Positions 20,614 to 25,600 of a DNA stretch of 64,000 bases are shown here, in pieces. The number at the start of each line of letters is the position of its first letter. The first letter of the stretch is position 1. The notes below the pieces were generated by a model. It saw nothing but the letters and a program-made list of their open reading frames with translations, was not told where the DNA came from and did not search any database. The position numbers were made by a program, and so were the translations under genes. Origin of the DNA: Thalassospira lucentensis MCCC 1A00383 = DSM 14000 (GTDB lineage Bacteria; Pseudomonadota; Alphaproteobacteria; Rhodospirillales; Thalassospiraceae); contig NZ_ATWN01000001.1 of the NCBI RefSeq assembly GCF_000421265.1, forward strand, positions 310,001 through 374,000, in the 5' to 3' direction.

Positions 20614-21408
20614 ATGAACGGAATTGTTGACCTGACCGAGGTCGGAAACAAAAGTATGGCATCAAGTCGAAGTCTGACGACGCAATGTGTGTTTGTCGTC
20701 GAAGACAACACCGATCTTAATAAGGATCTGTGCGAGTATCTTGAGATGTGTGGCTTTGCCGTGATTGGTTGCGAAACTGGTGCGAGCTTTTTTCGCGCGC
20801 TTAAAACCAAACAGCCGGATGCGGTCATCCTTGATATTATGCTGCCCGATGCTGATGGCTATGATCTTGCCAAATACGTCCGCCAGAACATTGATTGTGG
20901 CATCATGATGCTGACGTCCCTGTCAGGCATGGATCATCATCTGACAGGCTACAAGTCAGGTGCAGACGTTTATCTGACCAAAGATAGCCCTTTGTCGGTA
21001 ATCGAAGCCGCTTTGCAGCCGTTATTGCGCCGTTCCTCGCGTGCAGACAGTGACGCTGATGAGGGGGCTGATGCCGCTGGTATGGAAGCGGGCTGGGTTC
21101 TTGATCTGCTCAATTGGACATTGGTTAACCCGCTTGGAAAGTCGGCATCCTTGACCGCAACCGAACGGACAATCATCAAGTTATTGATTGACGCGAACGG
21201 GGCATGGTTGACCCGGCCGGAAATCGTTATCGCCTTGGGTAAGGCCGATACGGCTGAAAACTGCCGCAACCTTGATACGGCAATCCGACGTGTGCGCCAG
21301 AAGGTTCTCAAGGAAATTGGTGAAGAGCTTCCGGTACGCACAGCATATGGTCGTGGCTATGCCTTCACATCGCTTGGCGCCGTTTCCGGTGAAACAGAAA
21401 ACCTTTGA
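20614..21408 (+). CDS. Response regulator, OmpR/PhoB-type
   Basis: 264 residues. The receiver domain (about 22-140) has an acidic pocket at Glu30/Asp31, the phospho-acceptor Asp74 in VILDIMLPDADGYD, a Thr/Ser switch in MMLTSLSG and the conserved Lys in YLTKD. An acidic linker (SDADEGADAAG) leads to a winged-helix DNA-binding domain (about 155-255: LTATERTIIKLLI, LDTAIRRVRQKV, VRTAYGRGYAF). AAAGG lies 8 nt before the ATG. It converges on the two sensor-kinase genes with only 14 nt between stop codons, which suggests that it is their partner; the targets are unknown. Confidence 0.92.
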   Translation: MNGIVDLTEVGNKSMASSRSLTTQCVFVVEDNTDLNKDLCEYLEMCGFAVIGCETGASFFRALKTKQPDAVILDIMLPDADGYDLAKYVRQNIDCGIMMLTSLSGMDHHLTGYKSGADVYLTKDSPLSVIEAALQPLLRRSSRADSDADEGADAAGMEAGWVLDLLNWTLVNPLGKSASLTATERTIIKLLIDANGAWLTRPEIVIALGKADTAENCRNLDTAIRRVRQKVLKEIGEELPVRTAYGRGYAFTSLGAVSGETENL

Positions 21409-21422
21409 CGTTTGGTGCGCTA

Positions 21423-23513
21423 TCACGCAAGTGGTGCAGCGCTGTCCTGATTGGAAGTTTCACACGGTAGCAGCACACACAGCGCAATTCCCATCGGCCC
21501 CAGATCACGTAATTTGATCGAGCCGCCGTGCGCGTCAACAATGCGTTGTGAAATATGCAGGCCAAGCGCACTGCGCAGAGCCTTTGTTTCCATCTCGCGG
21601 CGAAACAGCGCATTTCCAATCAAGCGGATTTCATCGCTATCAAGTCCTTCGCCCTGACAGGGTATTGATATTTCCGCCAGCCAGTTACTTTGTGCGCGCG
21701 CGGTAATATGGATTGCTTGTCCATGGGCAAAACGCCGTGACGTTTCGACCAGGTTGGTCATCGCCAGACCGATCAGTGTTTCATCGATATAGGCTTCAAC
21801 ACCGTTGGTTCCCGTACAGGTCACCAGAATTTCGGCATCATCGCGTGTCGTATTGGCGACGAAATCATTCATGAAATGATCCAGCCCGACAAGTTCGCGC
21901 GCCAACGAGAACTCCTTGTCGTCAATACCATCCTTGCTTAGGAAAATATCAACCAGACGGGCAAGTTTTCGGGCCTGAAGCTCAATGCGTTTTAGCCGGT
22001 TCTGAATATCATCGCTGTGATCTCGTAAACGGAGCATCAGCATTTCTGACGAACGTTGAATAACCGCAAGCGGGGTTCGGAATTCATGCGACAGCATTGA
22101 AATCAACTTGCGCTGTTCACCGACAAGCGATGTTGTTTCTTCGGCTCTGGTCGATGCGAAGACCTGTTCCCTGTCCATTTGGGTCAGACGTATGGCCATC
22201 AATATGCCCATCGCGATGATGTGGAAAATGAAGGTGAATTGATGGAGGCCGATGCGTATCGGGGTGACCTCGATAAGTCCCGCATGGGCCAATTGCAACA
22301 TGATGACAGGGCCGCAAGGCAAGGCAAGGGCTATCAAATACGCCCAAAGCGTCTTGTTTCTGATATCTGCGGCAAGCCTTTTGACAAGAACCAAACAGGC
22401 GCAGGCCATGAAAAGTGCGACAGACGGAACGATATAGGTGCCAAACACGGTATAGAGTTCATTGGTCGTACCAATGAGAAAACTTAAAATGACGATGCAG
22501 TAGGCACATCCGAGCCAAAACAAAATTGGTGTGCGTTGGCGAAATTCAAGAATATGTATCCATAAAAAGACAACGGCAGCCTGTGAAACGATGTTGGTGG
22601 TCCCAATGAGAAAATCATTCATCCACGGGATTTCCGAGCGCAGCTGACTTAATCCGACACCATTTACAAGTGAAATGAGCATGCCAGCACACGCAATCCC
22701 GATGCCATAGCTGACAACAACCGCATCGCGGGCGATAAGCCCAAGGCTGAAATATGTAATGCCAAGGGTGAGAAACACCCCAAAGAAGATGTTTGTTGCC
22801 AGATTGCGAAGCGTCATTGATGAAATAAGGTCTTGGGCCTGCCAAAGGGTGACAGTTAGCAAGTTCGTACTGTTACTTTGTACCCGGATAAACAGGTGAT
22901 AGGCACCCGCATCAAGTTTCGGCCAGGATGCGACATGCGTGCCGCTGGTAAAGGGACGCTTGCGCGCAGGAACGCGGTCGCCCAAGCTTTCCTGCCAAAT
23001 GGCATCGGAAAGCTTGGCCGTTGTGACATCCTCAAAAAGATACAGATCTATATGGTTAAGATAGCTTGGATTGGCCTCAATGTATGGGGGGGCGGTCAGC
23101 ATCTGATCGACGCCGAAATCGATCCTGTACCAGATGATATCTGACGTATACCCAAACGATGGGATTGATGCGCTTTGCTGAAAGTCGTCAAACGGCAGTT
23201 GGCGAACATCATCAAGTGACATCTGCTGGCTTTGGTCGACATACCATGAAAGATAGGGTGTCAGATCAAGCTTGCCGGGAAGATCACCGTTTAAAACAAT
23301 TTTATCGGTGTGCCCGGTGGTTGATGGCGTAGTCCCATGTGCCCGCGCACCATTGTGCCCACCAATCGTTGCGACGATCAGGGCGACGAACAAGATGAAC
23401 AAAATGCGCGGTAACTTGGTGCGTATCAAGGTGGCCACGGGCGTTCGGCCCACGTTTTGACGTGCGGTTAAGACGGTCCACATATGACGGCGGAATGATG
23501 CAAAGGAGGTCAT
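21423..23513 (-). CDS. 7TM sensor kinase with phospho-acceptor His but degenerate ATP-binding domain (HK-B)
   Basis: 696 residues. A membrane or signal segment is at about 33-52, then a beta-rich periplasmic sensor (about 70-225; 7TMR-DISMED2-like, with WYRIDF and LNHIDLYLFED), seven predicted TM helices (about 238-440) and a HisKA dimerisation domain with His476 in MLSHEFRTPL. The HATPase_c domain is clearly decayed. The N-box reads NLVETSRRF, with Thr591 in place of the second Asn. The G1 box reads PCQGEGLD, with Cys619 in place of Asp. The G2 box reads RSALGLHI instead of GxGLGL. It probably cannot bind ATP but could accept phosphate. Its ATG overlaps the stop of the upstream kinase gene (ATGA). 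Confidence 0.9.
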   Translation of the reverse strand: MTSFASFRRHMWTVLTARQNVGRTPVATLIRTKLPRILFILFVALIVATIGGHNGARAHGTTPSTTGHTDKIVLNGDLPGKLDLTPYLSWYVDQSQQMSLDDVRQLPFDDFQQSASIPSFGYTSDIIWYRIDFGVDQMLTAPPYIEANPSYLNHIDLYLFEDVTTAKLSDAIWQESLGDRVPARKRPFTSGTHVASWPKLDAGAYHLFIRVQSNSTNLLTVTLWQAQDLISSMTLRNLATNIFFGVFLTLGITYFSLGLIARDAVVVSYGIGIACAGMLISLVNGVGLSQLRSEIPWMNDFLIGTTNIVSQAAVVFLWIHILEFRQRTPILFWLGCAYCIVILSFLIGTTNELYTVFGTYIVPSVALFMACACLVLVKRLAADIRNKTLWAYLIALALPCGPVIMLQLAHAGLIEVTPIRIGLHQFTFIFHIIAMGILMAIRLTQMDREQVFASTRAEETTSLVGEQRKLISMLSHEFRTPLAVIQRSSEMLMLRLRDHSDDIQNRLKRIELQARKLARLVDIFLSKDGIDDKEFSLARELVGLDHFMNDFVANTTRDDAEILVTCTGTNGVEAYIDETLIGLAMTNLVETSRRFAHGQAIHITARAQSNWLAEISIPCQGEGLDSDEIRLIGNALFRREMETKALRSALGLHISQRIVDAHGGSIKLRDLGPMGIALCVLLPCETSNQDSAAPLA

Positions 23514-25600
23514 GACGGCGCACCATCGTCATCTTGTGTTCGGGGCTTTTTTCGCGATACATGGGGGTCGGCCAAACCAAAGAAGTTTTGACGGGACGCT
23601 TTGATCGTTTCTTCCCGGTTATGGGGAATTTTGATCATTACCGTTGTGCCGGATGTCTCGCCGACACTGATCGACATTGATCCGTTATGGGATTGCACAA
23701 TGCGGTTGGTGATATGCAGGCCCAGACCGACACCTTGTGTGACGCCTGCGTCGCGTCCACGGTAAAACGCGTTGGATACATTCGTCAGATCGTCAATGGG
23801 AATGCCCGGTCCGGCATCGATAACACGGATATAGACAAATCCGTTCGACGACCGATTGCATGCGACCCAGACTGGAGCGTCGGGGGCGTATTTACGGGCA
23901 TTGTCGATCAAGTTGATGATCGCGCGTTCAAACAGAATGCGGTCAATATCGACAATGGCAAAATCGATATTTTTCAAGCTGACTTTCTGGTCCGGGATTT
24001 CACGGTTCCGTCGATTGATCAAATCACGTAGCAACTGATCAATGTTGGTCGGCTGCAAGGATGTTGTGAAATTCGCACTGTCGAGCGTCTCCTTGGTCAA
24101 AAAGGCATCGACCAATCCCGAAAGCTGACCGGCATTCCCACGAATGGTGGCAAGACGGCTGTGAACAGGGGCAGGCTCATTGCGCAGATGCAGGCCGAGA
24201 ATTTCTGCTGATCGCTGAATGATCGCAAGTGGTGTTCGAAATTCGTACGACAGCATGGTTATGAAAGTCCGCTGTTCGCCAGCAAGCTGATCGGCCCGCG
24301 CATTGGTTTGATGCGCATCAGTCCAACTGTAGGTCAGTCTCTGGGTGCGATAGGCCATCGCAATTGCAACCATCACAAGATGTATCGACGAGCTAAGCGG
24401 GTACACCTTGGTTGTGAAGGCCGTGATCGGCAGGATACCCAGCAGTGTCAAAACATGGATGTTGGCCGCAAGGGTTGGCAAAACAAGTGCGATCAAAAAG
24501 AAGCTGTTTGATGCCAGACGCCTTTCACGATAGCTGACGTAAATCAGATACATCAAAAGCGTGAACAGCAAAATCACATTGGGAACAAAGAATATCTGCG
24601 TGAAATAGATATAGGCATCCGATATCGCAGTGACCGAACCGATCATCGCCAATATGGAAAAGGCCATCATCACCCGAAACAGAACCGGGTTATAGTGATC
24701 AAGTCTGACGATATGGGTCCACATCGCGACACTGGCGCCCAAGGCAAACGCGGTTCCTGTTCCGGTAATAAGGTCGCTGGCAAGTGGCCAAATCCCCTTT
24801 AGCAGAAGCTGGGCATATCCTGACGTACCAAGGTTGAACAGAAAGACAGATAAAACATATCCGCTGTACCACAGCACCGATTTGTCGCGTGATATGATGC
24901 CAAAGGTCAGGTAGACACCAAACCCGATCAACAGGACACCCAGAAAACTGCTTTCAACAAGGTTATGTTCCTCGGTGTCGGAAACAAGCTCCGCCTCGGG
25001 GTATAGTTTGGCATGGAAAACATGGGCGCTGTTGGTGCGCACACCGATCATCAACCAATAGTGTCCTGATGGTAAATCCGGCCATTCTGATAAATGCCGG
25101 AGGCTGATCAAACTGTCTTTCGTGTTGGGGATCCGGTCACCAACAACATTTTTCCAGATGACATTGCGCGTCTCATCGTCAATCACGGTCAGACGGATCT
25201 CGTTGAGATAGGGCTCGCCCAATTCGATGAAGGCCCGCGAAATGTCATTGCCTTGCGGCGCGGTAAGCGAAAAGGCCAGCCGATACCAAATAACGCGTGG
25301 GGTGTAACCGGGCCCTGCGGTGCTGGCAACGGGTTCAAATTCAGAAGACGGAATATCAATCAGTTGGGCAGGATCGGTGACGTTGCGATCAGATGTCAGG
25401 CGCTCCATAAACCGGTTTAGATCGATACTTGTTGTCGCGCCATTTGCCGGCAATACAAGGTGTGCCATGTCGGTCCGTGCCGATGCAGGCGGCGAAAACC
25501 ATGTGATGGATGCGATAAGGGCAATCGTCAGGACACTTATGACGTCGCGCCAAGTCAACATCTGGCGAAAATCGCGCAAAGCGCCCCCAATTTCAGACAA
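23510..25600 (-). CDS. 7TM sensor kinase with intact ATP-binding domain but Tyr in place of the phospho-acceptor His (HK-A)
   Basis: 696 residues from a TTG at 25600; an ATG at 25561 is an alternative start, and neither has a clear ribosome binding site. The architecture matches HK-B: N-terminal hydrophobic segment (about 18-36), 7TMR-DISMED2-like periplasmic domain (about 45-205), seven TM helices (about 215-417), HisKA-like and HATPase_c domains. The catalytic domain is complete, with NLIDNARKYA (Asn567), DAGPGI (Asp595, Gly597, Gly599) and GVGLGLHI. The H-box reads MLSYEFRTPL: codon 452 (24245-24247) is TAC, Tyr, where the family has His. It should bind ATP but cannot autophosphorylate canonically. 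It is the first gene of the pair and overlaps HK-B by 4 nt. Confidence 0.9.
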   Translation of the reverse strand: MSEIGGALRDFRQMLTWRDVISVLTIALIASITWFSPPASARTDMAHLVLPANGATTSIDLNRFMERLTSDRNVTDPAQLIDIPSSEFEPVASTAGPGYTPRVIWYRLAFSLTAPQGNDISRAFIELGEPYLNEIRLTVIDDETRNVIWKNVVGDRIPNTKDSLISLRHLSEWPDLPSGHYWLMIGVRTNSAHVFHAKLYPEAELVSDTEEHNLVESSFLGVLLIGFGVYLTFGIISRDKSVLWYSGYVLSVFLFNLGTSGYAQLLLKGIWPLASDLITGTGTAFALGASVAMWTHIVRLDHYNPVLFRVMMAFSILAMIGSVTAISDAYIYFTQIFFVPNVILLFTLLMYLIYVSYRERRLASNSFFLIALVLPTLAANIHVLTLLGILPITAFTTKVYPLSSSIHLVMVAIAMAYRTQRLTYSWTDAHQTNARADQLAGEQRTFITMLSYEFRTPLAIIQRSAEILGLHLRNEPAPVHSRLATIRGNAGQLSGLVDAFLTKETLDSANFTTSLQPTNIDQLLRDLINRRNREIPDQKVSLKNIDFAIVDIDRILFERAIINLIDNARKYAPDAPVWVACNRSSNGFVYIRVIDAGPGIPIDDLTNVSNAFYRGRDAGVTQGVGLGLHITNRIVQSHNGSMSISVGETSGTTVMIKIPHNREETIKASRQNFFGLADPHVSRKKPRTQDDDGAPS

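Follow-up and report, generated by a model that had tools for sequence, protein, structure and literature searches.

A tandem 7TMR-DISM kinase and candidate pseudokinase conserved in the genus Thalassospira, with a possible split kinase in one strain

When two sensor histidine kinases are encoded side by side, and each appears to lack what the other has kept, do the two act together as one split kinase? This question is raised by a gene pair located in a stretch of 64,000 nucleotides (hereafter, the window) from Thalassospira lucentensis MCCC 1A00383 = DSM 14000 (contig NZ_ATWN01000001.1, positions 310,001 to 374,000). The two proteins, here called HK-A (23510-25600) and HK-B (21423-23513), are both encoded on the minus strand. 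In the original prediction, they were described as reciprocally decayed partners of an evolved obligate heterodimer. Comparison with related genomes suggests a different answer: HK-B is probably a pseudokinase throughout the genus, while the loss in HK-A is confined to the window genome.

Complementary losses in HK-A and HK-B

The structural part of the prediction was confirmed. The open reading frames (ORFs) encode two paralogues of 696 residues each, and overlap by the four bases ATGA (23513-23510), where the stop codon of HK-A meets the start codon of HK-B. Codon 452 of HK-A (24247-24245) is TAC, coding for Tyr where the phosphoacceptor His is expected, so that the H-box (24227-24256) reads MLSYEFRTPL; the ATP-binding boxes of this protein, namely the N-box NLIDNARKYA (23885-23914), the G1 box DAGPGI (23801-23818) and the G2 box GVGLGL (23717-23734), are intact. 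HK-B has kept the phosphoacceptor His476 (CAT) in its H-box MLSHEFRTPL (22068-22097), and shows degenerate sequences at the positions of the N-box (NLVETSRRF, 21729-21755), of the G1 box (PCQGEGLD, 21639-21662) and of the G2 box (RSALGL, 21558-21575). All these features lie on the minus strand.

The comparison set consisted of 29 Thalassospira genomes, the window genome included, with one genome per species. A direct scan of their DNA, using a pattern that accepts only His or Tyr codons at the phosphoacceptor site, gave two matches in each genome; of these 58 H-boxes, 57 contain a His codon, and the only TAC is that of the window HK-A. The protein alignment agrees, with His in 28/28 of the other HK-A orthologues. 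Tyr452 is, therefore, private to the window genome among the 29. Because all the other HK-A orthologues carry His, an evolved reciprocal split must be rejected. The same result removes the proposed parallel with CheA3/CheA4 of Rhodobacter sphaeroides as a stable trait, because a split is seen at the sequence level in the window genome only.

The case for HK-B turned out to be stronger than had been claimed. The phosphoacceptor His, the Glu next to it and the Thr of the HExxT motif are each kept in 29/29 HK-B orthologues. The Asp of the G1 box, which makes the adenine contact in the HATPase fold, is lost in all 29; its place is taken by Cys (20 genomes), His (6) or Tyr (3). In the N-box, the second Asn is Thr in 23/29 and is kept in the remaining 6/29, which group together as a single branch when the HK-B sequences are placed in a tree (support 93); the first Gly of the G2 box is kept in one genome and lost in 28/29, and the second is kept in 4/29. 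All the corresponding residues are retained by HK-A in 29/29 (29 rows were tallied for each protein, one HK-A, that of genome G022, entering by its kinase half). Loss of conserved ATP-site residues, by which a histidine pseudokinase is recognized, is thus fixed across the HK-B orthologues, and HK-B is probably a fixed pseudokinase, unable to bind ATP in the normal way.

The ATP domain of HK-B is degenerate rather than absent, because its match to HATPase_c (35.8 bits, compared with 77.5 bits for HK-A) still exceeds the cut-off of 26.4. The least decayed example (genome G020, locus L052, 4939-7011) is without the G1 Asp, but keeps N-box residues, an F-box-like LFRGR and a G2-like GYGLGL. From these sequences, the loss looks stepwise, with G1 first, and G020 may show the order of events.

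Selection has acted unequally on the two halves of HK-B. The ratio of non-synonymous to synonymous substitution rates (dN/dS) was calculated by the Nei-Gojobori method (NG86) on 11-12 close genome pairs, which were hand-picked, share genomes and are not independent; one pair with a dS of 0 was dropped for the dimerization and histidine phosphotransfer (DHp) domain, leaving 11 pairs there instead of 12. For this domain dN/dS was 0.032 in HK-A and 0.037 in HK-B; for the ATP domain it was 0.049 and 0.173, respectively, an approximately 3.5-fold relaxation in HK-B, whose ATP domain is nevertheless still under some constraint. Mean pairwise identities over 28 genomes (378 pairs; G022, in which HK-A is frameshifted, was left out) follow the same pattern, with 0.755 for HK-A and 0.782 for HK-B in the DHp domain, and 0.675 and 0.565 in the ATP domain. 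Invariant DHp columns numbered 35/65 in HK-B and 30/65 in HK-A, although both these counts and the identity means depend on how closely the genomes are related. Since the DHp domain of HK-B is as constrained as that of HK-A, while its ATP domain evolves faster, HK-B appears to be maintained for its DHp domain and not for the use of ATP.

In HK-B, 11 residues are derived on the window branch, seven of them before residue 200, compared with four in the sister genome G001 and three of unclear direction. The polarity of some entries in such counts is set by majority only, and we do not rely on this weak excess.

Conservation and origin of the pair

Both window proteins have the complete architecture of a 7TMR-DISM kinase, with DISMED2, 7TMR-DISM_7TM, HisKA and HATPase_c in one chain, all above the curated Pfam cut-offs. 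At E ≤ 0.01, the four domains were matched in 29/29 HK-B orthologues; in HK-A, three were matched in 28/28 orthologues and DISMED2 in 26/28 (G022 left out). HK-A itself is present in 29/29 genomes. Its frame is split by a frameshift in G022, a draft metagenome-derived Thalassospira genome that is 88% complete (L054, 6120-7040 and 4949-6433; also L074); this is possibly an assembly artefact.

The HK-A gene begins with TTG (window 25590-25600), and its next ATG is codon 14. As judged by eye on the first 45 residues, a GGxLR segment lies ahead of this ATG in 17/28 rows, including that of the window, and for this reason a start upstream of codon 14 is favoured.

The kinase pair is flanked by an OmpR-type response regulator (20614-21408, plus strand), convergent with it, and by a divergent upstream gene that, on the basis of its sequence, we take to be glmM. 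The order regulator, HK-B, HK-A, glmM is identical in 29/29 genomes. Asp74, the phospho-acceptor of the regulator (20833-20835, plus strand, as computed from the ORF start), is unchanged in 29/29 orthologues, as are Thr101 and Lys123, and the position of the gene makes it the likely cognate partner of the kinases. Names were available for 15 genus-level loci, 14 from Thalassospira and one from a metagenome-assembled member of the Rhodospirillales. The closest named relative is Thalassospira lohafexi 139Z-12 (L064), with an HK-A 98% identical to that of the window.

Among the candidates scored, each of the 29 genomes gave two 7TMR-DISM matches, both at this pair; for some genomes 10 of the first-look candidates were scored, and for the window genome all 17. 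The domain was also matched in at least 65 of 268 genomes of the same order outside Thalassospira, a set drawn evenly from a larger group and in part likewise scored for 10 first-look candidates. Inspection by eye of the matches listed for these 268 genomes revealed no two that lay within 5 kb of each other on one contig, the sole near-exception being a single match listed as two touching pieces (G114). In a genome from another family of the order (G088), a lone 7TMR-DISM kinase (L061, 4956-7711) is divergent from, and overlaps, an OmpR-type regulator, perhaps representing the unduplicated arrangement.

In a phylogenetic tree built by a quick method from 28 HK-A (G022 left out), 29 HK-B and 14 outgroup kinases, with long outgroup branches flagged, all HK-A sequences fall in one clade (support 98) and all HK-B sequences in another (99), and the two clades are joined with a support of 100. 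This topology fits a single duplication that would have given rise to both genes before Thalassospira radiated.

A possible mixed dimer and its alternatives

If HK-B is kept for its DHp domain, where would its phosphate come from? Within the same genome, HK-A and HK-B share on average (28 genomes) 0.54 of their residues in the DHp domain and 0.64 over residues 453-475; the corresponding values are 0.31 for the ATP domain and 0.25 for the seven-transmembrane region. This similarity makes mixed dimers plausible, and is compatible with a shared regulator, but proves neither, because the DHp domain is anyway the best conserved region of these proteins (identity of HK-A to the outgroup, 0.435).

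On balance, we hold it somewhat more likely than not that HK-A is an active 7TMR-DISM kinase, and that HK-B is a fixed pseudokinase with which it forms mixed dimers and which it phosphorylates; a conditional split kinase may then have arisen at the level of one strain. HK-A would be the catalytic kinase; HK-B, with its DHp domain under strong purifying selection, would contribute its phosphoacceptor His, its HExxT motif and a surface for the response regulator. The two would most likely pair through their similar DHp domains, allowing the ATP-binding domain of HK-A to phosphorylate the His of HK-B in trans. HK-B may thus fit the part of a pseudokinase partner of HK-A, and would then hand the phosphate to Asp74 of the convergent regulator, or strip it off. 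In normal genomes, HK-A would also be able to phosphorylate its own His. In the window isolate, where Tyr has replaced this residue, the His of HK-B is the only acceptor left, and the route from the HK-A ATP domain through HK-B to the regulator would be the only one, provided that the Tyr is real; whether such a system works depends on the formation of mixed dimers and on a trans geometry.

The closest published parallel is the pair FasB/FasC of group A Streptococcus, two membrane kinases acting with one regulator. As presented in the accessible part of that report, one of them is a proposed pseudokinase with a required His, its partner supplies the ATP domain, and two-hybrid data support mixed dimers and not homodimers (PMC12675982); this model matches the arrangement proposed here almost exactly. 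FasB, however, has a candidate His of its own, and the accessible text gives these proteins six predicted transmembrane segments and a ComE-like regulator and does not describe them as 7TMR-DISM kinases (PMC12675982). Moreover, their heterodimers have two-hybrid support, whereas the case for HK-A/HK-B is built on sequence, that is, on the DHp identity within genomes and on the presence of the pair in 29/29. CheA3/CheA4 are alike in having the phosphoacceptor and the ATP domain on separate proteins, but, as far as the available sections show, they are kinases of the cytoplasmic chemotaxis cluster that lack whole domains, whereas HK-A and HK-B keep all domains and lose residues (PMC3591291). The term split histidine kinase has been used, in the portion available, for Hik36-Hik43 (PMC7656254).

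Several observations weigh against this model. HK-B keeps the first N-box Asn, as well as the last Gly-Leu of the G2 box (Gly627 and Leu628 in HK-A numbering), in 29/29 genomes, and its ATP domain still matches HATPase_c (E ≤ 0.01) in all of them. The domain also folds in the single-chain AlphaFold prediction, with ten-residue means of the predicted local distance difference test (pLDDT) of 77-89, except around residues 631-650 (70 and 53) and at the end. Residual nucleotide binding may persist in the six genomes that keep the second Asn, G020 among them. If HK-A phosphorylates in cis, the Tyr variant would simply be dead. Finally, the retained His of HK-B also fits a phosphatase or PhyT-like role, and in ChrS, a laboratory-evolved pseudokinase, the available text reports that the retained His is not needed (PMC9491836).

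The most serious alternative concerns the window isolate only, and we regard it as quite possible: Tyr452 could be a loss of function, arisen in nature or in culture, which would leave HK-A without a phosphodonor role beside an HK-B unable to autophosphorylate, and the system off or limited to phosphatase activity. The Tyr is private to one genome, and TAC is a single transition away from the CAC found at this codon in a relative 98% identical. It is also among just three HK-A residues derived on the window branch (seven in G001), with three more of unclear polarity. On the other hand, the rest of HK-A is intact and appears constrained in comparison with the 98% relative (dN 0.0086, dS 0.0496, a low ratio), and a bypass route for phosphorylation exists because HK-B retains its His; a very recent loss would still be compatible with both facts. 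DivL of Caulobacter also has a Tyr at the phosphoacceptor site together with conserved ATP-site boxes, but in the accessible part of the source that Tyr is conserved among alphaproteobacterial homologues with one stated exception (PMC4211667), unlike the HK-A Tyr, seen in 1/29 orthologues. With one genome per species in the comparison, Tyr452 could have arisen recently in nature, by mutation in culture, or through an error.

A second alternative, which we consider rather unlikely although it would apply to the whole genus, dispenses with both mixed DHp dimers and trans-phosphorylation. HK-B would act as a homodimer on the regulator or on phosphorylated HK-A, as a dedicated phosphatase, phosphotransferase or regulator sink resembling PhyT, ChpT, Spo0B or RetS. 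Conservation of the HExxT Glu and Thr in 29/29 HK-B sequences would suit such a role. In PhyT/PhyP of Sphingomonas melonis, ChpT and Spo0B, too, a His in the DHp domain is accompanied by an ATPase domain that has degenerated, and PhyT, a membrane-anchored alphaproteobacterial kinase relative, is a phosphotransferase according to the part of the paper available (PMC5898713). As described there, however, PhyT relays phosphate from SdrG to PhyR, has an HRxxN motif, and receives its input from kinases (Paks) scattered in the genome, with no tandem paralogue (PMC5898713). PhyT bridges two receiver proteins, whereas a single one was seen in the ORFs beside the HK-A/HK-B pair, where HK-B keeps its His and has a degenerate ATP site; no genome-wide search for a second was made.

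RetS, a kinase relative of the 7TMR-DISM type, offers another comparison. To our knowledge, RetS and GacS are not tandem paralogues. A fold search with HK-B also retrieved the kinase region of RetS (6dk8 at rank 23, 6dk7 at rank 40), though other kinases came first; in a sequence search with the HK-B kinase core, KdpD came first and DivL was found at E 2.1e-4. In Pseudomonas aeruginosa, RetS interacts with GacS, thus acting on another kinase, and draws phosphate from it; it differs from HK-B in that, in the sections available, three phosphorylation sites are described and GacS is downregulated (PMC5992135). With these examples, the earlier statement that no 7TMR-DISM precedent was known needs tempering, in view of the RetS-GacS interaction (PMC5992135) and of FasB/FasC as a similar membrane pair (PMC12675982). 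The DHp similarity within genomes makes mixed dimers plausible. We favour the mixed-dimer model, and consider a homodimeric HK-B with phosphatase or transferase function about half as likely.

A stronger form of the mixed-dimer model, in which A and B would be an obligate heterodimer in the whole genus, with the His of HK-B as the main phosphodonor and the window isolate still signalling through HK-B, seems unlikely to us. An error of sequencing or assembly at the TAC codon is improbable: a single base in a single genome is concerned, and no second genome of the species offers a cross-check, but the frame is intact and the 21-contig assembly has ratings of 100% completeness and 0 contamination, although such ratings say nothing about single bases. 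That HK-B is a decaying pseudogene without function, as its missing ATP-site residues and faster ATP domain might suggest, can be rejected as scarcely credible, given a single open frame in 29/29 genomes, a DHp dN/dS as low as that of HK-A, and more invariant DHp columns than HK-A has.

Meaning of the pair for Thalassospira

No paper on the HK-A/HK-B pair was found in the literature searched, a search outside which most subscription journals lay. The system varies a known theme: throughout the genus, a 7TMR-DISM kinase stands in tandem with a probable pseudokinase, and in one strain the two may amount to a split kinase. According to the accessible part of one report, it is rare for histidine kinases to function as mixed pairs in which one partner is kinase-dead (PMC12675982). 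If the stronger, genus-wide form of the mixed-dimer model, which we hold unlikely, is true, the window isolate would be a natural complementation experiment, a functioning natural split kinase caught at its origin, and, as far as the literature found allows us to say, the first of the 7TMR-DISM class.

In the marine bacteria of the genus Thalassospira, the two genes of this candidate kinase/pseudokinase pair have stayed side by side throughout. Residues seem to have been lost in a graded way, the G1 Asp being gone in all 29 genomes and the N-box and G2 residues in part, and one strain is also without the phosphoacceptor of the kinase. These graded losses, together with that strain, offer clean material on which to ask how labour comes to be divided after a homodimer has been duplicated, and which of the two halves is dispensable. 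The pair is also a clean case, provided by nature, on which to test sensors that possibly operate in mixed pairs.

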